From positions 1 through 64,000 of the forward strand of contig JAJYXR010000022.1 of assembly GCA_021801795.1 (NCBI GenBank): a DNA stretch of 64,000 nucleotides, written 5' to 3'. A program made the translations under genes and the position numbers. Positions 5,079-53,343 of the stretch are shown in pieces. Every line of letters begins with the position of its first letter. The stretch's first letter is position 1. The notes under the pieces were generated by a model that saw only the letters and a list, made by a program, of their open reading frames with translations, was not told the DNA's origin and made no database searches. The DNA is from Actinomycetes bacterium (GTDB lineage Bacteria > Actinomycetota > Acidimicrobiia > Acidimicrobiales > JAJYXR01).

Positions 5079-5107
5079 TTGCATTCGTAGTTGTGAAAGC
5101 GTATAGT
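5079..5107 (+). promoter_or_regulatory. Promoter TTGCAT-N17-TATAGT for the surface-protein island
   Basis: A -35 box TTGCAT (5079-5084) and a -10 box TATAGT (5102-5107) are separated by 17 bp. Transcription would start near 5114. This rules out the GTG at 5106 as the start of the following gene, because it lies inside the -10 box, and supports ATG 5193. Confidence 0.6.
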
Positions 5108-5192
5108 GACAGGGCAGGTATTACTTGTGAAGAGTAGTGACAATCTAGTGTGGCCAATGAGTGGGGCGGCGGCTGCACGGGGGGAGGTCCCT

Positions 5193-6122
5193 ATGGCTGA
5201 GACAGTCTTCGAGCAGGTGAAGCAGCGGGTGACTTCCGTCGGTGGCCCAGGCCGCAGTCGCGTGCTGGGACGGGTGAGCCGGTGGAGATTGGCCAGGATG
5301 CTCCTGGCGGCGGCCCTGGTGTCGGCGGGGGCGGCGGTAGCAGTACCACTGGCTCTACCAGGGGTAGCTGCAGCCACAGCCTGCACTACCGCAGGCGTGA
5401 GTTCTGCCTCGCCCGATGCCTGCACCATAGGCACCAGCGTCACGATAGATGCAGGCACATTCACCGTAGTAAGCTCACCCACGCTGTACTGGCAGTTCGT
5501 GCTCTCTGGCTATGACCAGTGGGCGAGCGCTTCCAGTACCACTCTTGGCAGCTGCAGCGTGTCGTCAGGAGCTACGGCGTGCTCGGGCGGCACCCAACCG
5601 GTCCTTCTCGCAGTCGACGCTACTGGTGCGGGGAAAGGTTGGAACATCAGCGAGTATATTTCCAGCTCAGACCTTCCCAGCGGCAGCGCTCTCTACTTCA
5701 ATGGAGCGGGGAGCACGACGTATGGGGACTCGACGGTTGCCCCCGTGTCCACCACCGACGGCGGGTTTACTGCGACCACGCCATCCACGGTGTGTGACTA
5801 CGCGAGCACCTGCACGAACGCGACTCCGACTTCGGGTTCCGTTTGTGGAAATTATCCCGGGGGTACTGCCGGTTCAACCTCGTGTCCCGCTGACCCGGTG
5901 AACATGCTTGCCAGCACGTCCAGTACTGCACAGGAAGATCTTTACTCTGCCGAATCCACTACGGGTGTAGGCGCGATCTGCTTCGCGACTGGTACGGCGA
6001 CGGCTAGAGGCTGTGCCTCGACTACGAACACAGCGTTCTATAACCTCGGCATTCCCTCTAGCGCGCTGGCAGGGACTTACGCCAGCACGGTGGTGAATAT
6101 CCAGATCAACGCTGGTCCCTGA
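5193..6122 (+). CDS. Secreted WxL-like surface protein A1
   Basis: This 309-residue exported protein has a basic N-terminus, a hydrophobic stretch around residues 32-52 and likely cleavage after AAATA. The mature N-terminus has a pair of cysteines about 15 residues apart, as in its two paralogues. The rest is rich in Ser, Thr, Gly and Ala and is probably all beta. Near residue 150 it has D-A-T-G-x-G-x-GWNI, matching the first W-x-L segment of WxL domains. The C-terminus ends YNLGIP ... TYASTVVNIQINAGP, a degenerate form of the WWLxIPGN ... GP ending of the paralogues. ATG 5193 follows GGGGGAGG at 7 bp. The gene heads an island with DUF916-like partners. Assignment to WxL is by motif and context, so it is a distant-homology call. 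Confidence 0.7.
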   Translation: MAETVFEQVKQRVTSVGGPGRSRVLGRVSRWRLARMLLAAALVSAGAAVAVPLALPGVAAATACTTAGVSSASPDACTIGTSVTIDAGTFTVVSSPTLYWQFVLSGYDQWASASSTTLGSCSVSSGATACSGGTQPVLLAVDATGAGKGWNISEYISSSDLPSGSALYFNGAGSTTYGDSTVAPVSTTDGGFTATTPSTVCDYASTCTNATPTSGSVCGNYPGGTAGSTSCPADPVNMLASTSSTAQEDLYSAESTTGVGAICFATGTATARGCASTTNTAFYNLGIPSSALAGTYASTVVNIQINAGP

Positions 6123-6183
6123 CTCATCTCTCCGGGTCATGCTGCAGCGGGCACCGGATAGGTATGACAGGAGGAAGGCGAGG

Positions 6184-7359
6184 ATGGTGGCGTTTCGGTT
6201 CCTTGCCCGTCTGGTCATCACGGTAAGCCTCTTGACACCAGTGTCCATGATCCCTAGCCACGACGCCGGAGCCGTTGCTCCTGGTGGTGGGGTCGGTAGC
6301 TCCCAGGGCTATGGCTGCGAGTCAGTCCATGCAGGACCAGTCGTGCCACCGGGTGAACGACCATCCAGCTACTTCGAGCTGAATGCAGCTCAGGGCACGG
6401 TTAACCATGAGGAGCTGCTGCTCGCGAACCCCAATGCGTTCGCATGTGAGGTGACAGTCCTGCCTGCGTTCGGAGCTACTGCCAGGAACTCGGGTGATAC
6501 GTTCCCCAGCGCGATCCAGCCTGGGGCGTCCTGTGAGGCCGAGAGCTGCTGGCTCTCAGGTCTTCCCGTGACGGTCACAGTCCCTTCATACGGCCGGATC
6601 GACGTTCCATTCGGTATAACCGTCCCACAGGGCACTCCGTCGGGTGAGTATCTGGCCGGGGTGGTGGCCGAACCAGGTTTCGTCCCTAGCTCACCCAGTC
6701 TGGCCAAGGGCGGCGCGGGCCGTGGCGTGGTGGGAGCCGTGGTGGTGTCCCGGGTCGCCATCGGGGTTGCCGTGACAGTTCCCGGTCCGCTGCATCCGCT
6801 CCTCGTCATCCCAGGGGTGGATCTCGCTCCTGGAACCTCAGTGGTGCCCCGCCTGCATGTCACCGAAAGCGATAGGGGCAACACGTGGCTCCATCCGGCG
6901 GGTGACGTGGTGGTGAGCATCGGAGGCCGCCGCCGCAGCTTCCCCATGGCATCCAACACGGTCCTACCAGGAGACTCGGCAGTGCTCGCCGTCGCTACGC
7001 CAGGCGTAGCCGCCGGAGTGCATCCGGTAGAGGCAGAGCTCTGGTACTGGCACCACACGCTCCTGGCGGTCTGGCGCGGCGCGATCGATTTCCCGGTGCC
7101 GCCGCGGGTGATAAACCGCCATGGCGTACGGACAGTGGTCCTGCCTGCCCCATCTGGCACTCCCGGCTGGGCGGAGGCATTGGGTGGTGCGCTTGGTGGC
7201 CTGCTGGTCGGTCTGCTCGTCTTCTGGTTCCTGGCCTTCTGGAAACGCCGCCGCAGGAAGGACGAGGAAGATCCGGAACCGGCACCCATCACACCCGAGC
7301 CTGCCTCGGCTCCCCAGGCCGGTATCCGGTCACCAGTCGGCGAAGGGAGGCCGCGGTGA
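6184..7359 (+). CDS. DUF916-like (WxL-interacting) membrane-anchored protein B1
   Basis: This 391-residue protein has a signal peptide (residues 1-30), two extracellular beta-sandwich domains, one C-terminal transmembrane helix (about 331-353) and a basic then acidic cytoplasmic tail starting KRRRRKDEED. The first domain has the DUF916-like pattern of N-x-x-x-x-x-x-x-V-x-V-x-A followed by VPxGTPSGEYLAGVV. It shares with B2 and B3 a C-x4-CW[LI]xGLP element and, in the second domain, TW[LV]HPxG. In Firmicutes, DUF916 proteins bind peptidoglycan and WxL proteins. ATG 6184 follows AGGAGG with 9 bp spacing. The stop overlaps the next start as GTGA, so A1-B1-A2 is probably one operon. Confidence 0.72.
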   Translation: MVAFRFLARLVITVSLLTPVSMIPSHDAGAVAPGGGVGSSQGYGCESVHAGPVVPPGERPSSYFELNAAQGTVNHEELLLANPNAFACEVTVLPAFGATARNSGDTFPSAIQPGASCEAESCWLSGLPVTVTVPSYGRIDVPFGITVPQGTPSGEYLAGVVAEPGFVPSSPSLAKGGAGRGVVGAVVVSRVAIGVAVTVPGPLHPLLVIPGVDLAPGTSVVPRLHVTESDRGNTWLHPAGDVVVSIGGRRRSFPMASNTVLPGDSAVLAVATPGVAAGVHPVEAELWYWHHTLLAVWRGAIDFPVPPRVINRHGVRTVVLPAPSGTPGWAEALGGALGGLLVGLLVFWFLAFWKRRRRKDEEDPEPAPITPEPASAPQAGIRSPVGEGRPR

Positions 7360-8165
7360 AGACAGGAGTCGTGCTTGGGACCAGCACTAATGAGATCACC
7401 GGTACCTCCATTGCTGCTGGGAGGAAGCCAGCGCTGGTTGCCGTCGCTCTGTCTGGCCTGCGGTTGCTGGCCATAGCCCTGGTGGGAGTGGCTTGCCTCG
7501 CTGCCGCCTCGCCTGGTGTCGCGGATGCCGCTTCATGCTCTTCTTCCACGCCGCCCCTATCGTCCTCATACGGTTCGCCTGCCTCGTGCTCCGCAATCGC
7601 CACCATAACGGTCGACTCTGGTAACTACGCCATCGTGGATGCCGACGCAGGCAGCGTGCCCAGCTTCGGCACCATCACCCTGAACGGCTACGACCAGTAC
7701 GCGAAGCAGGCGGACGCCATTACGGCAGTCGATGCCAGCGGATCAGGTGCGGGCTGGAACATGACGGTGGCAGCCACTGGCTTCGAGGACACGAGCGGGT
7801 CACCGAGCAACTGCACCAGTTCGGCCCCCTGCGTCCTGTCGGGTGCGACAGTCGAGTACAACGCCTCGTCCGCAAGCCCTCCAGGGGACGTCCCACCGAG
7901 TCCCTCCTGCGCAACGGGTAGCACATGTGCAGACGACTCGGGCTCGAGCTCTTTCTGCACGACCGGTGCGTCCATCGCCTACCCGGTGGTCTCCACCTCC
8001 AGTGCAGCTACGTTCTGTGCAGTCAGCGCCGGGGAGGGCATGGGGGCAGTGGCACTGCCCAACTACTGGTGGTTGAAGATCCCCGGCAATGCCACACTAG
8101 GTGGGGCCACGAGCGGGAGCACTTTCGTCGACACCTTGACCGTTACTCTCTCGGCAGGCCCCTGA
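7356..8165 (+). CDS. Secreted WxL-like surface protein A2
   Basis: This 269-residue protein is a paralogue of A1 and A3. It has a signal peptide (hydrophobic about 29-52, cleavage after VADA) and a mature N-terminus starting SCSSSTPP ... SPASCS with two cysteines. The strand pattern TITVDSGNYAIVDAD...GTITLNGYDQY is followed by D-A-S-G-S-G-AGWNMTV near residue 133 (first W-x-L-like motif). It ends WWLKIPGN ... VTLSAGP (second motif WWL near 238). The GTG start overlaps the B1 stop and is preceded by GGGAGG. It is probably secreted and attached to the wall non-covalently, by analogy with WxL proteins; no LPXTG motif or transmembrane anchor is present. Confidence 0.7.
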   Translation: MKTGVVLGTSTNEITGTSIAAGRKPALVAVALSGLRLLAIALVGVACLAAASPGVADAASCSSSTPPLSSSYGSPASCSAIATITVDSGNYAIVDADAGSVPSFGTITLNGYDQYAKQADAITAVDASGSGAGWNMTVAATGFEDTSGSPSNCTSSAPCVLSGATVEYNASSASPPGDVPPSPSCATGSTCADDSGSSSFCTTGASIAYPVVSTSSAATFCAVSAGEGMGAVALPNYWWLKIPGNATLGGATSGSTFVDTLTVTLSAGP

Positions 8166-8416
8166 AATGCCTGGTGACCACATATTAAAAAGGACCCCGA
8201 CTCTCTTCGCGTGCCGGGTGGAGGAATCGGGCACGCTACGGTGCGGGAGACTGCCTGCTACTCAAGGCTGGGAGCTATTAAGATAGGACGGGCGCGAGCC
8301 GATATAGATATACAGACATACCCGTATACAGTGGAGGAGATCCGGCTGAAAGGAAAGCGTCAGCCAGTAACCGTGTGATAGGCATTCCAGGGTCGGATAC
8401 CGCCAGAGGGGGGACA
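8166..8416. promoter_or_regulatory. Intergenic region, probable internal promoter of the island
   Basis: This 251 bp gap divides the island into two likely transcription units. A short inverted repeat GCGTGCC (8209-8215) / GGCACGC (8230-8236) follows A2 and could be a weak terminator stem, but no T-run follows it. From 8275 to 8330 the sequence is unusually AT-rich for this genome and holds overlapping TATAGATATAC and GTATAC elements that could be a -10 region or an operator. I find no matching -35 box, so the promoter call is tentative. Confidence 0.3.
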
Positions 8417-9220
8417 ATGATGGAAGTGAAGAAGAGAATCACTCGAACGTCATCCAGGAGGGCCGGCTCTACATTCCTGCGAGCGCGGGAAGTGCATCGC
8501 GCTGCCTTCGGCCATGGGGCTCGCATGGCAGTAGTTGCCACGATCCTGCTGGCCTCAGGGGCGCTCTTCATAGGAGTCACGGCCCTGCCCGCGGGAGCTA
8601 CTGCGTGCTCGTCCACGACCCCCCCGAGCTCCTATGCCTCACCTGATTCGTGCACGATAAACGCCACCGTTACCATCGACTCCGGTAACTACGCGATTGC
8701 CGAGTCGGACAACGGCAGCGTGAGCCTCGGGACGGTGACCCTGACCGGCTACAACGCCTACACCGAGAGCAATAACGACATCATAACCGCAGTCGACGCC
8801 ACCGGATCTGGCGGTGGCTGGAATCTGACGGCTTCTGCCACAGGTTTCACCACGACATCCGGACCGAGTGGCAACTGCAGCTCGACCACTCCCTGCACGC
8901 TCGAGAACGTCGAGCTATCGTACAATGGCGACTCCGCGCCCACCACTGGGGCGGATCCCTCGACAAGCTGTGATTCGGGGAGCACCTGTACGGACAATTC
9001 AGCGTACTGCACCTCGGGGGCCAGCCTCAGTTATCCGATCGCCCTCTCGTCTACAGCGGCAGACATCTGCGCATACAGCAGCTCGAACGGGATGGGGGCG
9101 GTCAACCTGTCGAGCATGTGGTGGCTTTCCATCCCGGGGAACACCTACTCGAGCCCGTACGCCGGGTCGGGTGCGACCTTCTCCTCCACCATCACGCTCA
9201 CCCTTAGCTCAGGACCCTAA
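8417..9220 (+). CDS. Secreted WxL-like surface protein A3
   Basis: This 267-residue protein is the closest of the three paralogues to the canonical motif pair: GWNLTASATGF (near residue 134, a true W-x-L) and MWWLSIPGN (near 235). It has a signal peptide with a hydrophobic core around residues 36-58 and cleavage near AGATA. The mature N-terminus ACSSTTPPSSYASPDSC carries the conserved cysteine pair. The protein ends ITLTLSSGP. ATG 8417 is preceded by AGAGGGGGG; an upstream ATG at 8375 lacks a ribosome-binding site. B2 follows after 7 bp. A2 and A3 share so much pattern that a duplication of an A gene is likely. Confidence 0.72.
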   Translation: MMEVKKRITRTSSRRAGSTFLRAREVHRAAFGHGARMAVVATILLASGALFIGVTALPAGATACSSTTPPSSYASPDSCTINATVTIDSGNYAIAESDNGSVSLGTVTLTGYNAYTESNNDIITAVDATGSGGGWNLTASATGFTTTSGPSGNCSSTTPCTLENVELSYNGDSAPTTGADPSTSCDSGSTCTDNSAYCTSGASLSYPIALSSTAADICAYSSSNGMGAVNLSSMWWLSIPGNTYSSPYAGSGATFSSTITLTLSSGP

Positions 9221-9227
9221 GAGCTCA

Positions 9228-10457
9228 ATGGACCGCGTTTCAGTGACTACTGGCAGCGCAGGCAGTCGTGCTCTCATCGGGGGGGATCGGGGCCGATGGC
9301 TCAGGCTGGCGGCCCTCGCAGTCGCTGCTTCGGCCATGCTGGCCATCGTCCCACCTGGAGCCGGAGCGTGGGCGACGCCTTCGGTGGGAGACTTCACCGT
9401 CTCCCCGCTGTCGGCGAACTCCAAGACCACCACCGCGTACTACCTGGTGATGGGGGCCCCAGGCTCCAGCTATCAGGAGGCCTTCAGGGTTACCAATAAT
9501 ACGAGCCACACCCTGACCCTTCAGGTATTCGCCGCCAACGGCTACACGGCCGTGGGCTCAGGGGATGCGTACGCGCCCGTGCAGGCAACTGGTGTACCGT
9601 GCGCGACCACTGGGTGTTGGATATCTGGTCTGCCGTCCTCCGTTACGCTGCCTGCTCTAACAGCGCAGGTGGTCAGGTTCAGCGTGAGCCTCCCATCCAC
9701 CTTGCGAAACGGCGAGTACCTGGCGGGCGTGGTGGTGAGCGAAGCCCCCGGGGCTGCATCCCAGAGCCTGGTGGGATCGCACCAGGTATCGCTGGGCGTC
9801 TCGGTGCGGCGCCAGGTAGCCGTGGGCGTAGGCGTGGTGGTCGGGAACACGGCCTCCCTCGTGTCCGATCTCGCCATCACAGCGGTGACCGGGGGAGCCA
9901 GGGGGCCGACGGGTGTGCAGCAGGTCGTGCGCCTCACGGAGGCGGACCTGGGACAGACATGGGTACACCCCTACGGAGCCGTGGTCATCGCAGAGCACGG
10001 TCATACGGTCAGCGTCCCGCTGAAGTCAGGAACGGTGCTGCCCGGAGACCACACGGTGATGACCCTGGATGTGAAGAGACTGCCGGGTGGGAGCTACCCG
10101 ACCGTAGCGACACTCCACTACGATCACGGTACGAAGATTGCCGTCTGGCACGGCACGGTGTCGTTCTCGGCGCCGACTTCTTTCGTGGTAAAGCACGGAC
10201 CTGCTGGTCGTTCCATCGTGATCCTCCAGCCTGCCGGCCTGCCTGTCTGGGTAGTAGGCCTGCTGATCGCCCTGGGTGTGCTCGTCATCGCCTTGGCAGT
10301 CTTCCTGGTGTGGATCTGGCGCCCTCGCCGGCGCGAGAGGAGCAGCCCGGCAGGTAGTTCTCCAGAGCAGCGCTCTGGTGGCCATGCAGGTATCGAGGGG
10401 GCGAGTCCTGCCGGTGTAGGAAGGCCTCCAGGGGAGCGATCAGGCAGGCGGGACTGA
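9228..10457 (+). CDS. DUF916-like membrane-anchored protein B2
   Basis: This 409-residue protein has the same layout as B1: a signal peptide (hydrophobic 27-45), a mature region opening GDFTVSPLSANSKTTTAYYLV, a first beta-sandwich with FRVTNNTSHTLTLQVFAANGY, the CATTGCWISGLP element, and VSLPSTLRNGEYLAGVVVSE. A second beta domain follows with QTWVHPYG and GTVLPGDHTV. A transmembrane helix lies near 338-363, and the Arg-rich cytoplasmic tail is low in complexity. The ATG is 7 bp after A3. The gene for the giant LamG protein starts 2 bp after the stop, so A3-B2-giant-B3 is probably one operon. Its role is inferred as the scaffold that holds A3 or the giant protein at the envelope. Confidence 0.72.
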   Translation: MDRVSVTTGSAGSRALIGGDRGRWLRLAALAVAASAMLAIVPPGAGAWATPSVGDFTVSPLSANSKTTTAYYLVMGAPGSSYQEAFRVTNNTSHTLTLQVFAANGYTAVGSGDAYAPVQATGVPCATTGCWISGLPSSVTLPALTAQVVRFSVSLPSTLRNGEYLAGVVVSEAPGAASQSLVGSHQVSLGVSVRRQVAVGVGVVVGNTASLVSDLAITAVTGGARGPTGVQQVVRLTEADLGQTWVHPYGAVVIAEHGHTVSVPLKSGTVLPGDHTVMTLDVKRLPGGSYPTVATLHYDHGTKIAVWHGTVSFSAPTSFVVKHGPAGRSIVILQPAGLPVWVVGLLIALGVLVIALAVFLVWIWRPRRRERSSPAGSSPEQRSGGHAGIEGASPAGVGRPPGERSGRRD

Positions 10458-10459
10458 GC

Positions 10460-13400
10460 ATGCGAGCGTCGCGCTGGCAGCGGATCGTCACATCGCTCGG
10501 CTTGCTGAGCGGGGGCCTCACCTTGGTGGCAGTGCTCGCAGCACCCCAGAACGCCTCGGCGACCTCGCTATCGGCGAGCCCCGCGAGCCTCACCTTCTCC
10601 GGCGACTACGGCACCACACGGGGCCAGGGCGTCACCATCACCAACACGGGGACCTCCAGCTTGGGCGTCGACTCGGTGACGGTGGGAGCCTCCGGAGCGG
10701 TGCCGGACGTGGCGTCGGGTTTCGGGATCGACCAGGACGCCTGCAGCGGGGCCACCCTCGCCCCCTCGGGCAGTACGGGGGACACTTGCACCTTCGACGT
10801 CACCTACACACCGGTCACCGGAGCGAACCAGTCGACCGACGTGCTCGTCTCCACCAGTGGGGGTGTGCTCGAGGTGCCGGTGAACGGTCGGGTCCACCTG
10901 CCGCTCTACTCGGACGTGAATGCCGGGATGAACTGCGCGAACGGGGGCGGGTTCTGGCGCCTGGATGAGGCACCAGACGGCGGGGACGGGCAGAACGCGA
11001 ACGACTACTCGGGATGCGGCAACGCTGGGGATTACGGCAACTCCACGGTCTACTCTGCTTCGAACCCCGGCCCTCCTGGCACCTACGGTGACTACGGCTC
11101 CTACTTCGACAACGCGCCGAGCTTCGTCACCACCTCGACGGAGGTCTCTAACCCAGAGACCTTCACAGAGGGCGCGTGGGTGTACACCACCAACTCCTCC
11201 TATGGCCAGACGGTGATCGGCTTCGGGAACGACCAGACCGACCCGCCTGGAGCCGGCAGCTACGACCGCCTCCTCTACATAGGCACGAACGGAGAGCTCT
11301 ACTTCGTCGTCTACGACGGCTCGAAGGTCACGGTGAACACTACTGCCACGCTCTCGAACGACACCTGGTACTTCGTGGCAGCCACCCTCTCCAACGGCTG
11401 CGCGTCGGGCCAGGCCATGGACGTCTACCTCTTCTCGAGCTCCGGCTCACTCCTGGGGAGCGCAGGAAGCACTGCCAGCGACGTCTGTGCCCAGAACTAC
11501 TCGGGCTGGTGGTCGATCGGCGCCTCTGACACCGGGAGCTGGCCTAACATCGGTAGTGGCGCCATGTACGGCGACATCATGGACGCCTTCGTGAGCGGCA
11601 ACGCGCTAAGCGAGTCCAGTCTTGCCAACATGGCGAGCGACGGCGGGGGGGCGGACCTCGCTGTGCCGAGCGTGTCGGGAGGCGGGGTCGGCGGCATAGC
11701 CTTCCACGCGAGTTCCTCGGGTGTGACCGGCCGGATGACCTTCCCTGCCACCGCGGTCGGCTCCACGAGCAACCCTGGGGGGGTGACGATCACCGAAGGC
11801 GGTGGCGCTTCGCTGTCCACTGGCTCGGTGATGATCAGGGGCCCGGATGCGGCCGACTTCACCGTAACTGGTGACACCTGCGCGAACACGACCGTGTCCG
11901 TAGGCGGGTCCTGCAGCATCCAGGTGGCCTTCAGCCCGCTCGGACCCGGGAACTTCTCCGCCGAGCTGACTGTCGCCGACAACACGGCGGTCAGCGCCAC
12001 GACGGTGCTCCTCCAGGGGAGCACGCCGAATCCCTACAGATCCCAGGTCCTCTCTGACATATCGTCGATGGGACTTCCGGCCGGGGACGGTGCCTACCTC
12101 TCCCTCGACCGCCACCAGGGAAACGTCGCCTTCGACGCAAGTGGCGGGGGGAACGATGGCTTCATACAAGACGACGTAGGCCTGGCGCAGCCGATAGCCG
12201 GGAGCGGTGCGCCTGCCTGCCTGAGCGGCGACGTGGCGCCCGTGTTCGACGGGGGGGCGAGCTCAGGCCAGAGCTACGTCCAGATCGACGAGGGTAACCT
12301 CGGTACGCAGCCAATCGGTTCCACGTCTAACGGCTCATCCTCGCTGTCGGTGGCCGCCTGGTTCGATGCCGCCATGTGGAACGGCGGGAACTACCGGATC
12401 GTCGCCAACGACCACCCCTCCTCCACCTCCGACGGCTTCGACGTGTACGTGAACAACGGGGGAGGGAGCGTGGGCTTCGGGATGGGCTTCTACGGCACCT
12501 TCGGCGGGACCCACACCACGATCACCGCCACCCCCTCTAGTGCCCTCAGCCTCGGGTCCTGGTACTACGTGGTGGCCACCTACTCCGGCTCCTCGAGCGG
12601 GTCGTCGATGGCCCTGTACCTCTACAACTCCTCCGGCGCGGAGATCGCCAGCGCGACTGGTTCGCAGAGCTCGGGGTCGATGTACGCAGGGGAGTACCTC
12701 CCCCTGATCGGACGTGACCCTCAGTACAGCGGGGACTACATGGACGGGTCGATAGCCGGGGTGGGCATCTGGTACGCGCCTTCGACCGGCACAGCGGAGC
12801 TCACTAGCTCCGAGGCCCAGAGCCTGGCGACGACCGCCACATCCTGTGCGACCGGCGTCCCCGATCCGTCCCACGTCACCTTCACCAACCAGCCGGTGGG
12901 CTCCACGTCGTCGTCGTCCTCTGCCGGGGGTGGTCCGCAGGTGGTCCTGCTCGCGAACACCGGTACGACCTCGCTCACCGTGTCGTCGGTCAGCCTCGCT
13001 GGTGCCGACCCGCAGGACTTCGCCGTAGTGGTAGACCACTGCTCGGGGCTCAGCGTAGGCCCCGGTGGAAGCTGCTTCATGGAGGTGGCCTTCGACCCGG
13101 TCTCCTCGGGGGGGCTCAGCGCCGAGCTCGTCTTGCGAGATACCGGCTTCCTAGGCGGGGCGGTGGTGAGGCTCTTCGGCACCACCTCCAACCCCTACTC
13201 TTCCGCCACCTCGGGGGAGCCTCCTCCATCTGCCCAGCCATACAACGAGCAGGGTTCCTGGAACCTCGACCAGACCTCTGGCACCACGGTTCCCGACCGC
13301 TCCGGCAGCGGCAACACGGGCACATACGAGAACTCCCCGACGCTCGGCACCGCCGGCTCGGGCTCGCCGGTCTGCACCTCGAACTTCACCGGGGCCACCT

Positions 13401-16400
13401 TCAACACGGGTTCCACCACGGACCAGTACGTGGATGTCCCCGGCCTTAACGACAAGGTGAACTACTCTGCGCTCAGCGTCGAGACCTGGTTCGAGCTGCC
13501 CTCCTCGGGCTACACCGGCGGCTGGACCCGCCTAGTCTCGAACGGCTTCCCGCAGGGTGGTACCTCCTACGGCGGCTTCGAGCTCGGGATAGACCCCGAG
13601 CCCGGCACGAACGGCGTCGGGGGAACCGCGAACGGGACTTCGACCGGCGTGTTCTTCAACGTGCGCACCTCGAACGGGTTCCAGGGCCCGAACAACTCCG
13701 GACTCAGCCTGAGCCCGGGCACCTGGTACGACCTGGTGGGCGTCTACAACGGCTCGGAGGTGCTCGTCTACCTGAACGGCACCCTCGAGGCATCTGCTCC
13801 CCTGACTGGAAGCGTGATGGCCTCCCCGTACGACGTGCTCCTCGCGGCAGGCGCGGACGAGGGCGGGAGCGGCCCCGGCGCGCCAGGCAGCTTCTTTCCG
13901 GGCACCATATCCCAGGTAAGTATCTGGTCCTCCGCCCTCACCCCCGCACAGGTGAGCCAGCACTACGGATACTTCGCGGACGCGGTGGCCACGTGTGCCT
14001 ACTGGCGCCTCGACGAGCCGCCCACCTCCCGCACAGCCTACGACACCTCGCCGAACGCCACGCCGACCAGCTTCGCCGGTGGAGCACCGCATACTCCCCT
14101 CGCGGACAACGGCTCGCTGCACGGCCTCGTGGCACCCGGACAGCCAATTACTGGCACCGGCGCACCCATATGCCTTCCTGGCGACACCGCGGACGCCTTC
14201 GACGGCGGCTACATCTCCACCAGCCGCACCTTCGACAACCCCCAGATGTTCTCGGTCGCCGCCTGGTTCAAGACCTCGACGGCAGGAGGGGGCATAGTGA
14301 GCTTCGGGAACATCGAGGGCGGACAGCACGACCGCGCCCTCTACGTGGGCTCGAACGGCTACCTGTACTTCGGGATCTGGTCCACGTCGGCCAATGCCGC
14401 AGTGTTCCTCAGCTCGGCTCCCACGTCGAGCTACAGCGGCCAGTTGGTCGACAACGGCGAGTGGTACTACGCGGTGGGCGTGGTCTCCTCCAACGGGAAC
14501 ATGTGGCTCTACCTGGACGGCGCGCTCATCGCATCGAATACCACCAACACCTACACCGCACAGAACTACGCAGGCCAGTGGTGGATCGGCTTCTTCGGCC
14601 CGGGCTCGGGCTGGCCGTACGAGGGAGCGCTCAGCTTCGTGGGCGACATAGCCGACGTGTCGGTCTACGACATCCTCTTGAGCAGGAGCGGGATCTCCCC
14701 CTCGGTCTCGCAGCTCTACTCCGACGCGACCTCCTGCGGGGTCGCGAGCCCGAGCACGAGCCAGCTCTTCTTCCCGAACCAGGCGGTCGCCTCCACCTCG
14801 GCTTCGCAGAGCGTGACCGTGACCAACACTGGCACCGCGACCCTCACCTTCCCTTCCTCGCCTGCCACCATCGGGGGGAGCGACCCAGGGGACTTCGAGC
14901 TGACCGGCGACACCTGTGCCGGGGCGAGCCTCTCGCCGGGGTCAACCTGCAGCGTGTCGGTCGCCTTCGACCCCACCACCACGGGCGGTCGCGCGGCGAC
15001 CCTGAGCCTCGCCTCGAACAGCGCGGGCGGCAGTATCGAGGTGAGGCTGTTCGGAGCGGTCCAGGTGCCCTACACCGCGGCTGTGATGTCGGGCGAGGGG
15101 GCGGGTTCGCCAGCCGCCTACTGGCGCCTCGACGAGCCCACTGGTTACACGAGCGCGTTCGACTCCTCGGGGAACTCTAACACCGCCACTTACCAGGGCG
15201 ACTACACCCTCGGCCAGTCACCTTCGTTCATGGCCTGCGACCCGAACGACACTGCAGTCGCGCTGGACGGCGCGTCGGGCAGGGTCACCACGCCGCTCGT
15301 CAACTACTCGCCGGGGGGCGCTCTCACCGTCGAGGCGTGGTTCCGCTTCGTCGGCTACACGGGCAATCCCCGAGTCGTCGCGAACGATCATACCGACGCC
15401 AACGACCACGGCTTCGAACTCGAGGTGAACAACGGTGGTGGCTCGGGGTTCTTCGTGGTGGGCAACGGCTCCTCACAGGGCAGCGCTACGTGGACCCAGA
15501 GCCTTTCGTTGAACACCTGGTACTTCTACGTCGGCACCTATAACGGCTCCACAGTAGCGGCCTACATCGACGGCAGCCTGGTAGCCTCTACTTCATACAG
15601 CGGGGGTAACGTCGCGCCGCCTGCGACCTCCGGCCTACCTGTAGCCATCGGATACGACCCAGCCTATAACGGCGACTTCGTGGACGGCTCGGTCGCCCAG
15701 GTCGCGGTATACAACAGCGGGCTCAGCTCCTCGGAGGTCGCGGCTCAGTGGTCTGCGGCCACCTCCTGCGCGGAGCCGAGCGTGACGCCATCGAGCCTGG
15801 ACTTCCCGAACCAGCCGCTCTTCACCACCTCGGCCTCACAGACCGTGACCGTCGCGAACACAGCGACGTCCGGCTCGCCCTCGCTCTCTGTCTCCTCGGT
15901 CTCCATAGAAGGCACTGCCGCCAACGGTGCGCCTGACTTCGCGATAACGGCGGACTCATGTGCAGGGGCGAGCGTAGCGCCAGGAGCGAGCTGCACCATA
16001 TCGGTGGACTTCGACCCGCAGTTCGTCGGGCGGACATCGGCCGCGCGCCAGGGCACCCTGGTGGTTACCGACACCACTGAGTCGGGCGCGCCCGCGACCG
16101 CACAGGAGGTGACACTGGACGGCACCGTCACGGACCCTCTGGGCATAGGCGTCTGCTCCGGAGGCGGCACTGGAGCTGCCGGGTCGACCTCGTGCCTGCC
16201 CACCGAGACCACGGGAGGCGTCGGCGCGCCGCTCGCCTACTGGCGGATGGACGAGACCTCCGGCTCCATCGCGCACGACTCCTCCGGCAACGGCCACGAC
16301 GGCTATCTCCATGGGGGCGTGACGCTCGGGAATCCCGGGTCGGTGGTCTCGGACACCTCGGAGACCTCGATGGGCTTCAACGGAGCTACCAGCTACATAA

Positions 16401-17404
16401 GCGTACCCAGCCTGAACGATAACGTGACCCCCGCCGCGCTCAGCGTGGAGGGGTGGTTCGAGCCGACCGGTTGGACCGGGAATCCACGCGTAGTCGCGAA
16501 CTCCTGGACCGACGGAGGATGCACCGTACCAGCCGGCGCCTGCACCACCGGCTTCCAGCTCGTGGTGAACTCTCCGGGCCAGAGCGGGCAGTTCGCGGTG
16601 GGGACCCAGGGAGGGAACCTGGAGCAGGTCACCTGGTCCCTTTCCACGCCGCTGGCGCTGAACACCTGGTACTTCTACGTCGGCACCTACTCGTCCAGCG
16701 CCATATCCGTCTATCTCTACCAGGAGGGTTCCTCGTCGCCCCTGGTTTCGGCGTCTGCTACCCCTTCGTGCAGTAGCTGCGCGGTGGCGGCCACGCCCTA
16801 CGACGTGGAGATCGGTCGTGATCCGGTTTACCAGGGTGACTACTTCCAGGGGAACATAGACCAGGTGGCCATCTACGACTCCCAGCTCTCCTCGGCCGAG
16901 GTGGCGACTCAGTTCTACGCGGGCGAGAGCGTCTTCTCGGTCACCATGCCGAGCTCTCTTGCCTGGTCGACGACCCTGAACGGCTTCAACCAGTCGGTGG
17001 TGAACGGGTCCTCCCTCACCGTGGACGACCAGACGCAGGCGGGCTACGGATGGGATGTGGAAGCGACCTCTACCCAGTTCTCCTCGTCTGCACACAGCTT
17101 GGCCACCAACAGCCTGAGCGTGAACGGCTCATCGAGCTCGCCTGGTGCCACCACCGTTCCGGGAGTCTCGTGCTCGGCAGGCACCTGTGGGAGCACGCCC
17201 AGCGATACGGTCGGATATCCGGTAACGGTTCCCGCAGGGACTGGAGGAAGCTTCCCCACCCCGGTAAGCCTGTTCGCAGCCCAGTACGGCACAGGCCAGG
17301 GTAGCTGGAGCGTGGGGACGGACTGGTGGCTGTCATTGCCTGGCAACACCTATGCCGGAACCTACACCTCGACCATAGTGGTGCTCCTGGCCAGCGGGCC
17401 GTGA
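10460..17404 (+). CDS. Giant secreted LamG / choice-of-anchor-D protein with C-terminal WxL-like domain
   Basis: This 2,314-residue protein has a signal peptide (1 to about 35, cleavage near ASA). Modules alternate as follows, with approximate residues: anchor-D Ig-like 36-147, LamG 150-395, anchor 400-525, LamG 528-795, anchor 797-913, LamG 915-1170, LamG 1172-1428, anchor 1430-1538, LamG 1540-1772, anchor 1773-1893, LamG 1915-2155, WxL-like 2158-2314. LamG modules are marked by [YF]WR[LM]DE and later DGS[IV]A/GxI openings; anchor modules by TNTGT and DxCxGAxLxPGxxCxxxVxFDP. The final domain has GWDVEATSTQF (near 2196) and WWLSLPGN (near 2289), and ends LASGP as the small A proteins do. It has no transmembrane anchor. 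It is probably a carbohydrate- or surface-binding adhesin held by DUF916-like partners. Confidence 0.8.
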   Translation: MRASRWQRIVTSLGLLSGGLTLVAVLAAPQNASATSLSASPASLTFSGDYGTTRGQGVTITNTGTSSLGVDSVTVGASGAVPDVASGFGIDQDACSGATLAPSGSTGDTCTFDVTYTPVTGANQSTDVLVSTSGGVLEVPVNGRVHLPLYSDVNAGMNCANGGGFWRLDEAPDGGDGQNANDYSGCGNAGDYGNSTVYSASNPGPPGTYGDYGSYFDNAPSFVTTSTEVSNPETFTEGAWVYTTNSSYGQTVIGFGNDQTDPPGAGSYDRLLYIGTNGELYFVVYDGSKVTVNTTATLSNDTWYFVAATLSNGCASGQAMDVYLFSSSGSLLGSAGSTASDVCAQNYSGWWSIGASDTGSWPNIGSGAMYGDIMDAFVSGNALSESSLANMASDGGGADLAVPSVSGGGVGGIAFHASSSGVTGRMTFPATAVGSTSNPGGVTITEGGGASLSTGSVMIRGPDAADFTVTGDTCANTTVSVGGSCSIQVAFSPLGPGNFSAELTVADNTAVSATTVLLQGSTPNPYRSQVLSDISSMGLPAGDGAYLSLDRHQGNVAFDASGGGNDGFIQDDVGLAQPIAGSGAPACLSGDVAPVFDGGASSGQSYVQIDEGNLGTQPIGSTSNGSSSLSVAAWFDAAMWNGGNYRIVANDHPSSTSDGFDVYVNNGGGSVGFGMGFYGTFGGTHTTITATPSSALSLGSWYYVVATYSGSSSGSSMALYLYNSSGAEIASATGSQSSGSMYAGEYLPLIGRDPQYSGDYMDGSIAGVGIWYAPSTGTAELTSSEAQSLATTATSCATGVPDPSHVTFTNQPVGSTSSSSSAGGGPQVVLLANTGTTSLTVSSVSLAGADPQDFAVVVDHCSGLSVGPGGSCFMEVAFDPVSSGGLSAELVLRDTGFLGGAVVRLFGTTSNPYSSATSGEPPPSAQPYNEQGSWNLDQTSGTTVPDRSGSGNTGTYENSPTLGTAGSGSPVCTSNFTGATFNTGSTTDQYVDVPGLNDKVNYSALSVETWFELPSSGYTGGWTRLVSNGFPQGGTSYGGFELGIDPEPGTNGVGGTANGTSTGVFFNVRTSNGFQGPNNSGLSLSPGTWYDLVGVYNGSEVLVYLNGTLEASAPLTGSVMASPYDVLLAAGADEGGSGPGAPGSFFPGTISQVSIWSSALTPAQVSQHYGYFADAVATCAYWRLDEPPTSRTAYDTSPNATPTSFAGGAPHTPLADNGSLHGLVAPGQPITGTGAPICLPGDTADAFDGGYISTSRTFDNPQMFSVAAWFKTSTAGGGIVSFGNIEGGQHDRALYVGSNGYLYFGIWSTSANAAVFLSSAPTSSYSGQLVDNGEWYYAVGVVSSNGNMWLYLDGALIASNTTNTYTAQNYAGQWWIGFFGPGSGWPYEGALSFVGDIADVSVYDILLSRSGISPSVSQLYSDATSCGVASPSTSQLFFPNQAVASTSASQSVTVTNTGTATLTFPSSPATIGGSDPGDFELTGDTCAGASLSPGSTCSVSVAFDPTTTGGRAATLSLASNSAGGSIEVRLFGAVQVPYTAAVMSGEGAGSPAAYWRLDEPTGYTSAFDSSGNSNTATYQGDYTLGQSPSFMACDPNDTAVALDGASGRVTTPLVNYSPGGALTVEAWFRFVGYTGNPRVVANDHTDANDHGFELEVNNGGGSGFFVVGNGSSQGSATWTQSLSLNTWYFYVGTYNGSTVAAYIDGSLVASTSYSGGNVAPPATSGLPVAIGYDPAYNGDFVDGSVAQVAVYNSGLSSSEVAAQWSAATSCAEPSVTPSSLDFPNQPLFTTSASQTVTVANTATSGSPSLSVSSVSIEGTAANGAPDFAITADSCAGASVAPGASCTISVDFDPQFVGRTSAARQGTLVVTDTTESGAPATAQEVTLDGTVTDPLGIGVCSGGGTGAAGSTSCLPTETTGGVGAPLAYWRMDETSGSIAHDSSGNGHDGYLHGGVTLGNPGSVVSDTSETSMGFNGATSYISVPSLNDNVTPAALSVEGWFEPTGWTGNPRVVANSWTDGGCTVPAGACTTGFQLVVNSPGQSGQFAVGTQGGNLEQVTWSLSTPLALNTWYFYVGTYSSSAISVYLYQEGSSSPLVSASATPSCSSCAVAATPYDVEIGRDPVYQGDYFQGNIDQVAIYDSQLSSAEVATQFYAGESVFSVTMPSSLAWSTTLNGFNQSVVNGSSLTVDDQTQAGYGWDVEATSTQFSSSAHSLATNSLSVNGSSSSPGATTVPGVSCSAGTCGSTPSDTVGYPVTVPAGTGGSFPTPVSLFAAQYGTGQGSWSVGTDWWLSLPGNTYAGTYTSTIVVLLASGP

Positions 17405-18531
17405 CGAGCTGGCGCGCCGTCATGCGCGGACGTGCTCGCATAGTGGTGCTCGCGACGAGGTGCTTGGTCGTCGCCGTCCCCTTCTTCCTCTTAGCCGCAC
17501 CGGCTGCCTGGGCCTCCGCAGGCTCTGGAGGTGTGCCAGCTACCGCCAAACTGCCCAAGGGGGCCGCATCCCCCGGTTTTTCCGTATCGGTGCTGGGCGG
17601 GGCTCCTGGTGCTACGTACGCGTCCCTGGACCTCCTACCGGGAGAATCCATGCTGTCGGGGATCGTGGTCACCAACCTCTCCAGCCAAGTGGAAGTTCTG
17701 AAGGTCCTTGCCGCGACAGGACGTACGGCTTCCGATTCAGGAGACGCCTATAGGCCCGATGCCGGTCCCTGCGTAGGAGCTGCCTGCTGGCTCATAGGTC
17801 TGCCTCCCGTCATATCGATACCAGCCGGTAAGAGCAGGTCGGTGCTGTTCAAGGTGTCGGTTCCTCCCCGCGCGCCCGACGGTGACTACCTGGCGGGCGT
17901 GGTCCTCCTACCAGCGTCGTATGGAAGCCCTCACGTGATGACCATGACCAAGGGCGTGCGGGCGAACACCACCGTGGTCCACGGCTTGGCAGTTGGAGTG
18001 GCGATCACGGTAGGCAACGCCGCGTCTCTGGTCTCGTCTCTTAGGGTGGAGGGAGTTTCCGTCGTCCATCCGCCGCTGAGGGCAGGCTCCAACGACGGCC
18101 CCGTTATGGTGGAGGTCACCGAGCACGATGACGGGGAAACCTGGCTTCATCCCCGCGGCGTGCTGTCCATCCGTCTCTCCAGGCGGGTGGTGTCGCGTGT
18201 GGTGGTGTCATCGACTGTCCTTCCCGGTGGTACCGCGACCCTGGAGGTGGCCGTAGAGGGCGTGCCCGCAGGAGTCTGGCCAGCAGGCGTGCTGCTCTGT
18301 TTCGATTCTTCCAGAAGTTGTACGGAGTGGTCCGGGAAGCTCGCCTTCCCAGCGGTGGCAGCCTCCAGCAGCCACGGATCACGACGCGGCTTCGTGGTGG
18401 ACGTACTAGGCAGCCATCTGCCCGCGTGGGAGGGATCTCTGCTGACTGGTCTGGCAGTCCTGGTCCTACTCGCTGGTCTGGTTGCCGGGTTAGTCGCCTG
18501 GAGAAGGGCACGCTTGCCGACCGGGGACTGA
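17401..18531 (+). CDS. DUF916-like membrane-anchored protein B3
   Basis: This 376-residue protein has a signal peptide (hydrophobic about 15-35), a first beta domain with GESMLSGIVVTNLSS, the CVGAACWLIGLP element and VSVPPRAPDGDYLAGVV. A second domain holds ETWLHPRG and STVLPGGTATLEV. A C-terminal transmembrane helix (about 344-368) is followed by a very short tail, RRARLPTGD, much shorter than in B1 and B2. The GTG start overlaps the stop of the giant gene as GTGA, indicating coupling; ATG 17422 is an alternative. As the last gene of the island it is the likely dedicated membrane partner of the giant LamG protein. Confidence 0.72.
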   Translation: MTSWRAVMRGRARIVVLATRCLVVAVPFFLLAAPAAWASAGSGGVPATAKLPKGAASPGFSVSVLGGAPGATYASLDLLPGESMLSGIVVTNLSSQVEVLKVLAATGRTASDSGDAYRPDAGPCVGAACWLIGLPPVISIPAGKSRSVLFKVSVPPRAPDGDYLAGVVLLPASYGSPHVMTMTKGVRANTTVVHGLAVGVAITVGNAASLVSSLRVEGVSVVHPPLRAGSNDGPVMVEVTEHDDGETWLHPRGVLSIRLSRRVVSRVVVSSTVLPGGTATLEVAVEGVPAGVWPAGVLLCFDSSRSCTEWSGKLAFPAVAASSSHGSRRGFVVDVLGSHLPAWEGSLLTGLAVLVLLAGLVAGLVAWRRARLPTGD

Positions 18532-44257: not shown

Positions 44258-45673
44258 ATGGCTGACACTGAGTCCGTAGGGACCGCCGAGGCAGAGGCCT
44301 CCCAGGAGGGCAGGGTCCACACGCGGGAGGCAGAGGCCTCCCAGGAGTCTTCGAAGGAGTTCGTGGCCGAGACGTCCGAGGGTTCCCAGGAGCTGGCACC
44401 CAGGCGGTCTACCCCTCTGGGAGAGCTCCACCGTGAGGTGGGGTCGGTCCTGAGGCTCCCGGAGGGAAATGTTCTGGATGCTTCGGACATCGTCACGGAG
44501 GCTCCAGATTCGGAGACGATGATCATAAACATGGGTCCCCAGCACCCCTCTACCCACGGGGTGCTGCGCCTGATGATGGAGCTGGACGGCGAGACGGTGC
44601 TTCGCACGAAGCCGGTTGTCGGATATCTCCATACCGGTATGGAAAAGACTGGCGAGGAGCTCACCTACATCCAGGGGGGCACGAACGTCACCCGGATGGA
44701 CTACCTGTCGCCTCTGAACAACGAGCTCGTCTTCGCCCTCGCGGTGGAGGCGTTGCTGGGCCTGGAGCTTCCCCCTAGGGCTGTGTGGATCAGGATGCTC
44801 CTCTCGGAGCTCCAGAGGGTGTCGTCGCATCTGATGTGGCTGGCGACGAACGGCATGGACGTGGGATCGACGACGATGATGATCTTCGGCTTTCGCGAGC
44901 GGGAGATGCTGCTGGCCTTCTTCGAGAAGACCACCGGCGTACGGATGAACCATAACTTCATCCGTACCGGAGGCACGGCGGCGGACCTTCCAGACGGCTG
45001 GGAGGACGACGTGGAGCTCATATGCGACACGGTGGTGGCGAGGCTGGACGACTACGACGAGCTCCTGACCGGCCAGCCCATCTTCCGGGAGCGGATGGAG
45101 GGTGTAGGTGTCCTGAGCGCCGAGGAGGCGATAGCCCTCAGTGCCACGGGACCCATCCTGCGTTCCACCGGGATTCCCTGGGATCTGAGGCGCTCGATGC
45201 CGTACCTGGCATATGAGGAGGTGGACTTCGACGTAATCGTGGGCACCTACGGAGACAACTTCGATCGTTACGCGGTCAGGATGAACGAGATCAGGGAGTC
45301 GGTGGGTATCATCCGCCAGGTGGTGGAGAGGATGCCTCGAGGTGACTACAGGTCCGACGACCGGAAGGTGACCCCACCGCCCCGGTCCCTGATCGACGAG
45401 TCGATGGAATCTCTTATCCACCACTTCAAGATCTTCACCGACGGCTTCAAGGTTCCCGAGGGTGAGGTTTACGTGGCCATAGAGTCGCCACGGGGAGAGA
45501 TCGGCTGCTACCTGGTTTCCGACGGGTCCGGGAAGCCCTACCGGATGCACATACGCGCACCATCGTTCGTGAACCTCCAGAGCCTTCCGGTGATGCTGCG
45601 GGGTGGTCTGGTAGCCGATGCCGTGGCCACCATCTCCTCGGTCGACCCCGTCATGGGTGAGGTGGACCGGTGA
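44258..45673 (+). CDS. nuoD: NADH-quinone oxidoreductase subunit D
   Basis: This 49 kDa-type subunit of 471 residues forms the quinone-binding chamber with NuoB. The family core begins near residue 85, with MGPQHPSTHGVLRLMMELDGE, GYLHTGMEKTGEE, and later RMEGVGVLSAEEAI and SPRGEIGCYLVSDGSGKPYRMHIRAPSF. The N-terminal 80 residues are an acidic extension with two EAEASQE repeats. Spacing from nuoC is 6 bp. NuoE overlaps the stop. Confidence 0.96.
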   Translation: MADTESVGTAEAEASQEGRVHTREAEASQESSKEFVAETSEGSQELAPRRSTPLGELHREVGSVLRLPEGNVLDASDIVTEAPDSETMIINMGPQHPSTHGVLRLMMELDGETVLRTKPVVGYLHTGMEKTGEELTYIQGGTNVTRMDYLSPLNNELVFALAVEALLGLELPPRAVWIRMLLSELQRVSSHLMWLATNGMDVGSTTMMIFGFREREMLLAFFEKTTGVRMNHNFIRTGGTAADLPDGWEDDVELICDTVVARLDDYDELLTGQPIFRERMEGVGVLSAEEAIALSATGPILRSTGIPWDLRRSMPYLAYEEVDFDVIVGTYGDNFDRYAVRMNEIRESVGIIRQVVERMPRGDYRSDDRKVTPPPRSLIDESMESLIHHFKIFTDGFKVPEGEVYVAIESPRGEIGCYLVSDGSGKPYRMHIRAPSFVNLQSLPVMLRGGLVADAVATISSVDPVMGEVDR

Positions 45674-46227
45674 CCCGCCACCTGTCGGCCGAGCTCCTGG
45701 CTGCCGCCAAGGAGCTGATCGCGCTCTACCCGAACCCACGCTCTGCGCTGGTGCCCCTGTGCCACCTGGCCCAGGAGCAGGATGGCTGGCTCACCCCGGA
45801 CGCCATCGAGGACATAGCGGAACTCCTGGACATCACTCCCGCGGAGGTCCTGGGCACTGCTTCGTTCTACGACATGCTCCACACCGAGGAGGTCGGCAGG
45901 TACGTCATCGCCATCTGCACGAACATCGCCTGCATGCTGCGAGGCGCAGACGACCTCCTGGCGCACGCGGAGGATCATCTCGGCATACGAGCGGGCGCGA
46001 CCACTCCCGACGGCATGTTCACGATCGAGGAGGCCGAGTGCCTGGCCGACTGCGGCCGTGCCCCGTGCGTGCAGGTGAACCACCGTTTCTTCGGGAATCT
46101 CACGCCGGAGGGCTTCGATCAGCTAGCCGCCGATCTCCGCTCTGGGGCCCTGGAATCCGAGGTGCCACCGCATGGCACTCTGTGCAGGGTACGGCGGTCG
46201 GTGGGTCTCGAGGCTGGAGGACATTGA
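45670..46227 (+). CDS. nuoE: NADH-quinone oxidoreductase subunit E
   Basis: This 24 kDa-type subunit of 185 residues carries the N1a [2Fe-2S] cluster. The cluster ligands are in CTNIACMLRG and AECLADCGRAPCVQVNHRFFGNLTPE. The GTG overlaps the nuoD stop, and the stop overlaps nuoF. Confidence 0.95.
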   Translation: MTRHLSAELLAAAKELIALYPNPRSALVPLCHLAQEQDGWLTPDAIEDIAELLDITPAEVLGTASFYDMLHTEEVGRYVIAICTNIACMLRGADDLLAHAEDHLGIRAGATTPDGMFTIEEAECLADCGRAPCVQVNHRFFGNLTPEGFDQLAADLRSGALESEVPPHGTLCRVRRSVGLEAGGH

Positions 46228-47531
46228 TGGCCGTCACGGAGGCACCCCGTATAGTGACCTCGAGGCTCGGCTACGAGGACTCCCACACCCTGGAGCGCTA
46301 TCTGGCAACCGGTGGCTACGAGGGCCTGCGGAAGGCTCTGTCGATGTCGCCGGAGGCGGTGGCCGCCGAGGTGGATGCTGCCAGCCTGCTCGGTCGCGGC
46401 GGTGCCGGGTTTCCCGCGGGACGCAAGTGGGCGATGCTGCGAAAGGCTCCGACTACCTACCTGGTGGTCAACGGGGACGAGAGCGAGCCCGCGACCTTCA
46501 AGGATCACATGCTCCTGGAGCGGGATCCGCATCAGCTGGTAGAAGGCGTGGTCATCGCGGCATACGCGCTCGGGGTGTCCCGTGCCTTCATCTACGTACG
46601 AGGCGAGTTCGCTCTCGGGATGGAGCGGGTCCAGCAGGCTCTGAACGATGCCTACGCCCATGGTGCGGTCGGTCAGGACATATTCGGCTCAGGCTTCAGC
46701 GTGGACGTAGTGGTCCATCCCGGTGCCGGGGCCTACATATGCGGAGAGGAGACGGCCCTCATAGAGAGCCTGGAGGGCAAGCGTGGGTTCCCGAGGATAA
46801 AGCCCCCCTACTTTCCTGCAGCGATCGGTCTCTATGGAGAACCGACAGTGGTGAACAACGTCGAGACGCTCTCGAACCTCCCCTGGATAATCCTGAACAC
46901 CGGTGCAGCATTCAGCGCGCTCGGCGAGGGTCGCTCGACGGGCACCAGGCTCTTCGCTCTGGCCGGCCACGTCCGTAACCCGGGGGTCCACGAGATAGAG
47001 ATGGTGAAGACCACCTTCCGGGATCTCATATACGCGCCGGTGCTCGGCGGTGGGATCCTGGGTGGCAGGGAGCTGAAGGCCTTCATACCCGGAGGGGTGT
47101 CGGCACCCTGGTTCGGACCCGAGCAGCTCGATCTCCCGCTGGGTCAGGACGAGGTGGGTGCCGCTGGATCCATGCTCGGATCAGGCTCGGTGGTGGTGAT
47201 GGACGAATCCACCTGCGTGGTCCGCGCTGCCTGGCGCATTACCAAGTTCTTCTGGCGGGAATCCTGCGGGCAGTGCACTCCGTGCCGTGAGGGAAGCGGA
47301 TGGCTGGAGAAGATTCTCCGGCGCATCGAAGGCGGGGAGGGTCGCGAGGATGACATAGAGCTGCTGATGGACGTCTGCGACAACATATCTCCGGGCGTCT
47401 CCTGGCCGCCCCAGCAGACGACCATATGCGTGTTGGGACCCTCGATCCCGTCCTCGATAGCCTCAGCGATACGGATGTTCCGCGACGATTTCCTGGTCCA
47501 CGTGAAGGAGGGTGGGTGTCCCCATGGCTGA
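46227..47531 (+). CDS. nuoF: NADH-quinone oxidoreductase subunit F
   Basis: This NADH- and FMN-binding subunit of 434 residues is the electron entry point. It has GRGGAGFPAGRKWAML, NGDESEPATFKDHMLLERDPHQLVEG, GAGAYICGEETALIESLEGKRG, and the N3 cluster motif ESCGQCTPCREGSGW with a late cysteine in TTICVLGPS. The start is ATG 46227, overlapping the nuoE stop. Confidence 0.96.
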   Translation: MAVTEAPRIVTSRLGYEDSHTLERYLATGGYEGLRKALSMSPEAVAAEVDAASLLGRGGAGFPAGRKWAMLRKAPTTYLVVNGDESEPATFKDHMLLERDPHQLVEGVVIAAYALGVSRAFIYVRGEFALGMERVQQALNDAYAHGAVGQDIFGSGFSVDVVVHPGAGAYICGEETALIESLEGKRGFPRIKPPYFPAAIGLYGEPTVVNNVETLSNLPWIILNTGAAFSALGEGRSTGTRLFALAGHVRNPGVHEIEMVKTTFRDLIYAPVLGGGILGGRELKAFIPGGVSAPWFGPEQLDLPLGQDEVGAAGSMLGSGSVVVMDESTCVVRAAWRITKFFWRESCGQCTPCREGSGWLEKILRRIEGGEGREDDIELLMDVCDNISPGVSWPPQQTTICVLGPSIPSSIASAIRMFRDDFLVHVKEGGCPHG

Positions 47532-50295: not shown

Positions 50296-50297
50296 GC

Positions 50298-53016: not shown

Positions 53017-53318
53017 CGGTGCCCGGTGCCTGGTACCTGGGGCTCTCGGTGGTCCTCTTCGCCATCGGCGCGCTGGGTGTGCTGGTGCGCCGGAACGTCC
53101 TGGTGATGTTCATGTGCGTGGAGCTGATGCTGAATGCCGCGAACCTGGCCTTCGTGACCTTCTCGAGGATGCTCGACGACATAGGCGGGCAGGCACTGGT
53201 GTTCTTCGTCCTGGTGGTGGCAGCGGCCGAGGTGGTGGTCGGCTTGGGAATAGTCGTAGCCATCTTCCGGAGGCGCCAGGACGCGACCGCAGACGACTTC
53301 CACGTACTCAAGGGCTGA
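53013..53318 (+). CDS. nuoK: NADH-quinone oxidoreductase subunit K
   Basis: This antiporter-like small subunit of 101 residues has three helices and the conserved [32 protein letters not shown] with the buried glutamate. The GTG overlaps the nuoJ stop. Length matches the family exactly. Confidence 0.96.
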
Positions 53319-53343
53319 CGGAACCAAGGACTGACTCAGAACG

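Follow-up and report, generated by a model that had tools for sequence, protein, structure and literature searches.

A cluster of seven genes in the genome of an Actinomycetes bacterium is probably a divergent, single-tryptophan branch of the WxL/WxLIP (csc) surface system, in which membrane-anchored proteins would hold secreted WxL-domain proteins that are displayed. The cluster lies in a stretch of 64,000 nucleotides (positions 1 to 64,000 of contig JAJYXR010000022.1, assembly GCA_021801795.1, order Acidimicrobiales), which we refer to as “the window”. WxL gene clusters have been reported almost exclusively from Lactobacillales and Bacillales, and are commonly interpreted as devices for adhesion in the gut or in virulence (PMC9772566, PMC10599100). 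According to the literature, over 91% of WxL domains are in Firmicutes; the remainder is not discussed there. We found no description of a WxL/WxLIP system in Actinomycetota in the open-licence literature.

The seven open reading frames (ORFs) are tightly packed on the + strand and span positions 5193-18531, in the order A1-B1-A2-A3-B2-giant-B3. Here, A denotes small secreted proteins with a WxL-like domain, B denotes membrane-anchored proteins with two domains, and the giant is a LamG protein with a WxL-like tail. This alternation was first described in a first-pass annotation, and all of the ORFs have been confirmed. Neighboring genes overlap by 4 nt at two junctions (B1/A2 and giant/B3) and are separated by 2-16 nt at three others, i.e., they are spaced as in operons, apart from the A2-A3 gap, which alone is longer (about 250 nt). 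The four A domains can be aligned with one another, A1 being the most divergent; so can the three B proteins, with B1 and B3 sharing 37% and 35% identity with B2 (E 4.3e-48 and 1.8e-38, respectively). All A and B matches in the whole genome fall inside this single cluster. Each of the four A domains is C-terminal and finishes with GP at the stop codon. A1-A3 are rich in cysteine (8-10 residues each), and no LPXTG protein was found at the cluster, as the first-pass annotation had also observed. The giant contains six LamG stretches (Pfam PF13385, E 7e-93) and five choice_anch_D (ASH-like) stretches (NF012200); an NCBIfam scan found nothing beyond choice_anch_D in it.

The A proteins are homologous to the WxL domains of Bacillota. 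In profile-profile comparisons, the window A domains align with an independent Bacillota WxL alignment over 150 columns (HHalign probability 97.5%, E 6e-12), whereas controls (column-shuffled WxL, LamG, ASH, and cross-family comparisons) reach a probability of ≤5%. The Bacillota reference set of WxL and DUF916 proteins came from annotated plasmids of Enterococcus, Pontibacillus, Terribacillus, Companilactobacillus, and others. This resemblance had been named beforehand as a point on which the interpretation could fail, and it held. Thirty-four of 46 actinobacterial A domains match PF13731, the WxL family, at E ≤ 0.1 (best, 5.5e-15), and the giant of a relative from another genus (L088) scores 49 bits. 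In a joint alignment, 46/46 actinobacterial domains and 10/11 Bacillota domains carry the motif 1 tryptophan; the third position of the motif is V in 32, L in 8, and I in 4 of the actinobacterial domains, which is to say mostly WxV, not WxL. When the A profiles were searched against PDB sequences, no match was significant.

The B proteins are likewise homologous to the DUF916/DUF3324 proteins of Bacillota, as had been suggested from the sequence. The window B proteins align with them over 152 columns (HHalign probability 94.6%, E 6.5e-8), and B2 scores 29.9 bits to PF06030 (currently named WxLIP_PGBD), above the gathering score of 27.3; B1 (11.9 bits) and B3 (13.7 bits) fall below this cut-off, with the same region aligned. 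Across the family, PF06030 matches 38 of 39 actinobacterial B proteins. PF11797 has no match in the window B proteins and matches 4 of the 39, and an HHalign comparison of the B proteins from outside the window covers both domains (318 columns). The B-family profile also matches the solved Enterococcus faecium protein EfmWxLIP1 (E 1.4e-13). When the AlphaFold2 (AF2) model of B2, with a predicted local distance difference test (pLDDT) score of 79, was searched with Foldseek, the top PDB matches were again EfmWxLIP1 (9i1y/9i25; E about 1e-13, TM-score by target 0.68-0.74), so that the predicted fold is related to that of the family, as anticipated; 9i25 is a solved entry titled as WxLIP bound to long WxL. 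Judged by composition, every window B protein has a C-terminal transmembrane helix followed by basic residues. Such a helix is found in 36 of the 39 family members, and basic residues are more numerous after it than before it in 35. Together, the profile-profile comparisons reject an independent origin of the actinobacterial A and B proteins, which the first-pass annotation had considered possible. Pfam already recognizes some actinobacterial members, and the actinobacterial branch is, by these profile matches, a variant of a known system.

The two gene types occur together. With a window-only A profile, nine A loci were found, spread over eight further genomes of the class; seven of the loci adjoin a B gene found by a separate window-only B profile, and an eighth (in G091) has an adjacent PF06030 match. 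Because independent A and B searches reach neighboring genes in other genomes, the adjacency is far beyond chance. Among 396 sampled Actinomycetota genomes, the A profile matches 37 and PF06030 matches 33, i.e., A-B type gene pairs are present in about one in ten sampled actinobacterial genomes, and most are unrecognized. Hence, the survey of other Actinomycetota proposed in the first-pass annotation does recover adjacent A and B genes, scattered across the phylum, and the view that they are confined to one actinobacterium has been corrected. In plasmids of Streptomyces goshikiensis, a “RICIN domain” protein adjoins a “DUF916” protein, and in Arthrobacter caoxuetaonis, a “hypothetical protein” adjoins “DUF916”; in these named examples, the DUF916 partner has been recognized and the WxL partner has not. 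Comparison of the window B alignment with genome contigs gave one named relative, a soil actinobacterial metagenome-assembled genome (MAG; VAWK01000045). Large actinobacterial A proteins elsewhere carry HtaA, purple acid phosphatase/metallophosphoesterase, GH43 plus ricin, or fn3 domains.

The partners also co-vary. A mirror tree of 48 A-B pairs gives a distance correlation of r 0.69. Since species history alone yields a correlation, pairs were reshuffled within genomes, restricted to those that carry more than one pair (two or three). Among 3456 such re-pairings, the true one comes 15th, and with the window left out it comes 3rd of 576. The co-variation of cognate A and B trees therefore holds even against within-genome reshuffling, and the proteins appear to form dedicated pairs.

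Several points weigh against the assignment to the WxL/WxLIP system. The window A proteins all fall below the PF13731 gathering cut-off of 25 bits (A2, 17.0; A3, 16.6; A1, no match). The second WxL motif (YxxxLTWxLxxxP), regarded as defining, lacks its tryptophan: in the joint alignment, this residue is present in 0/46 actinobacterial domains vs 10/11 Bacillota domains. The position is mostly L, I, V, or F in the actinobacterial domains, and the remainder of the motif (Y, T, and the terminal GP/AP) is retained. From the alignment, half of the defining signature appears to have been lost throughout the branch or to have been lacking ancestrally. Pairing counts from broader profiles (47/52 A clusters with a B within 3.5 kb and 35/46 PF06030 matches with an A within 3.5 kb) are partly circular, the profiles including members collected by proximity; on the B side, they draw on a search of 16 genomes chosen by A matches and on the PF06030 results. 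Of the exceptions, five A clusters in all, two consist of fragments that lie at a contig end or close to one, a third is a short, decayed match, and in a fourth (G114) a locus scan shows a weak B match next to the A gene. Lastly, the six possible A-B assignments in the window are indistinguishable by mirror tree (r 0.685-0.693).

If the assignment is right, the A proteins and the giant's tail would be C-terminal, immunoglobulin (Ig)-like WxL domains, and each B would be a type I membrane protein with two Ig-like domains outside, a transmembrane helix, and an arginine-rich cytoplasmic tail. The WxL domain would be exported by Sec as an incomplete beta-sandwich, which a strand from a long loop in the first domain of the partner B would complete; the WxL domain would thereby be folded and retained at the outer face of the membrane or peptidoglycan layer. 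The small A proteins may form a platform from which the giant would project its chain of LamG and ASH domains, binding glycans or matrix. In the B2 model, a strand (residues 162-172) gives way to a loop of low confidence at about 173-195 and then to a further strand (196-205) that leads to the second domain, and the position of the loop makes it the candidate donor. In a published AF2 model for E. faecium, a WxLIP hairpin becomes ordered and inserts alongside a WxL strand, in parallel, so that the WxL sandwich is completed (PMC10599100).

A different arrangement is suggested by what the models resemble. The 14 best Foldseek matches of the A3 model (pLDDT 76) are chaperone-usher pilins (CfaB, FimG, PapA, and others), whose Ig folds are incomplete in the way proposed for the WxL domain. 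The matches that B2 has beyond WxLIP are most often to chaperone-usher chaperones (CfaA, CsuC, FimC, Caf1M, and PapD; E about 1e-8 to 1e-7). Three A members match DUF4402 and one matches Fimbrial, all weakly. In the giant, the pilin-like domain is C-terminal, which is also where the FimH adhesin has it. The A proteins might then polymerize by donor-strand exchange into a pilus-like fibre, with B as a membrane-tethered chaperone, the giant as the tip adhesin, and no usher; WxL/WxLIP would be the single-membrane counterpart of chaperone-usher assembly, B acting as a tethered donor-strand chaperone and A building an usher-free fibre or stack. We consider the fibre unlikely and the broader equivalence similarly doubtful. 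The fibre is speculative because neither reliable sequence homology nor an usher was found: profile comparison with eighteen E. coli K-12 pilins gives a probability of ≤25%, in an alignment that includes the signal peptide, comparison with nine E. coli K-12 chaperones gives ≤2.3%, and the usher family PF00577 is absent from the genome, which is 92% complete (the E. coli control was positive). Moreover, the TM-scores between A3 and pilins are modest (0.3-0.5), and nearly one B per A favors holders over a catalytic chaperone. The WxL chain of 9i25 is not among the 50 matches listed for the A3 model. Since the folds resemble those of chaperone-usher partners although no sequence homology and no usher were found, the actinobacterial system may operate in the manner of donor-strand complementation yet stand outside the chaperone-usher family.

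The remaining readings concern the role of B. Under the classical view, it is the WxL domain itself that binds peptidoglycan, and B has only an accessory part; E. faecalis WxL domains do bind peptidoglycan and attach in trans (reviewed in PMC5817068). With a dedicated B gene at nearly every A locus, and with A and B partners that co-vary, we give this view little chance here. It has also been proposed for WxLIP that the second domain binds host cells and that the transmembrane helix inserts into the host membrane (PMC10599100). For the actinobacterial proteins, such a host adhesion device is very improbable: the conserved arginine cluster after the helix is a positive-inside signature of an anchor in the cell's own membrane and speaks against insertion into that of a host, streptomycetes and a soil MAG are among the carriers, and the PF11797-homologous domain appears to be poorly conserved.

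The closest known gene clusters are the csc/WxL clusters of Lactobacillales and Bacillales (Siezen 2006, PMC1534035; Hassan & Williamson, PMC9772566). Like them, the window cluster combines small WxL proteins, a DUF916 protein with a C-terminal transmembrane helix, and a large multidomain protein with a C-terminal WxL domain, all secreted and clustered; some CscC proteins have ConA-like lectin domains. Unlike them, it has three B genes per four WxL domains, cysteine-rich A proteins, no motif 2 tryptophan, a giant of 2314 rather than about 500-1000 amino acids, and no LPXTG protein, which is frequent in csc clusters but not essential. At the level of individual proteins, B resembles WxLIP (PF06030 plus PF11797; EfmWxLIP1) in having two Ig-like domains plus a transmembrane helix, but is only 14-16% identical to EfmWxLIP1, its second domain is mostly under PF11797 detection, and its arginine-rich cytoplasmic tail is conserved. 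The A domain shares with PF13731 its C-terminal position, motif 1 (D-x-R/T-G...G-W), GxG, and Y-x-x-T near the end, and differs in the two motifs as described above. With chaperone-usher pili, the likeness lies in the predicted folds of both partners, in the proposed completion of an incomplete Ig domain by a donated strand, and in the placement of the giant's pilin-like domain at its C-terminal end; the differences extend to the membrane anchor of B and the roughly 1:1 pairing.

Coordinates are collected in Table 1. The flanks of the cluster are ordinary, with a methylguanine-DNA methyltransferase upstream and an FAD-linked oxidase downstream; further downstream (45618-58618, + strand), respiratory complex I genes (NuoF-, NuoG-, and NuoL-like among those scanned) are equally ordinary. 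Other loci vary in layout. In five of them, a longer B-like protein (523-625 amino acids; B' in Table 1) directly follows the A-B pair. A sub-branch (L121:6949-9260, L122:6864-9174, and L124:7518-10244) has a single B gene together with a pair of small A genes that diverge from each other on opposite strands. At L069:10357-11151, an A protein of 264 amino acids (E 2e-22), from the same order as the window, has no B gene that could be found on its contig; elsewhere in that genome, even the strongest B-like match is only marginal (E 5e-4). A single reading frame at L067:9776-11023 has A-like and B-like stretches, and may be frameshifted or a chance fusion of neighbors. Outside the phylum, PF06030 passes its cut-off in Thermotoga maritima, a control genome, and the DUF916 domain thus extends beyond Bacillota and Actinomycetota. 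An RCC1 domain protein on Paenibacillus urinalis plasmids (H14-H16) matches a small-A query over 94% of its length (E 3e-3), and is possibly another unrecognized large WxL protein. Matches to a Klebsiella plasmid by tblastn (E 9) were rejected, being antisense to an annotated gene in a phage-like region.

Table 1. Positions of the genes and domains of the window cluster, and of B' genes at other loci
Feature	Position	Strand	Evidence or remark
A1, small secreted WxL-like protein, 309 aa	5193..6122	+	ORF; alignment with A2, A3, and giant tail; family profile E 2.9e-11
B1, WxLIP-like, 406 aa, two Ig-like domains	6139..7359	+	ORF; C-terminal transmembrane helix, then KRRRRK (basic tail)
A2, small secreted WxL-like protein, 269 aa	7356..8165	+	ORF; HHalign with Bacillota WxL within window A set
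A3, small secreted WxL-like protein, 267 aa	8417..9220	+	ORF; PF13731 sub-threshold; AF2 model
B2, WxLIP-like protein, 409 aa	9228..10457	+	ORF; PF06030 over cut-off; AF2; Foldseek
Giant, large-WxL protein, 2314 aa	10460..17404	+	ORF; PF13385; NF012200; C-terminal WxL-like domain
Giant, C-terminal WxL-like domain	16868..17401	+	A-family alignment; profile E 2.5e-33; ends ...LLASGP at stop codon
B3, WxLIP-like protein, 376 aa	17401..18531	+	ORF; C-terminal transmembrane helix; start overlaps giant stop
B', longer B-like protein	L066:8346-9968; L068:6626-8248; L070:8376-10097; L071:1-1876; L072:10780-12351		Follows A-B pair

The LamG protein is plausible as an adhesin, and the first-pass annotation had named an adhesin as one possible product of the cluster. 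“Surface display” is the safer label, because the cargo elsewhere includes enzymes. Gene pairs scattered across Actinomycetota, streptomycetes and a lineage from soil among them, have heme-binding, phosphatase, glycosidase, and lectin proteins as cargo, which suggests that WxL/WxLIP is a general surface-display device. The absence of the motif 2 tryptophan across the branch suggests that the system can do without half of the signature that gave it its name. Within-genome co-variation predicts cognate pairs of holder and cargo, and the likeness of both partners to those of the chaperone-usher pathway yields a concrete hypothesis, namely that the holder may act by donating a strand to its cargo.

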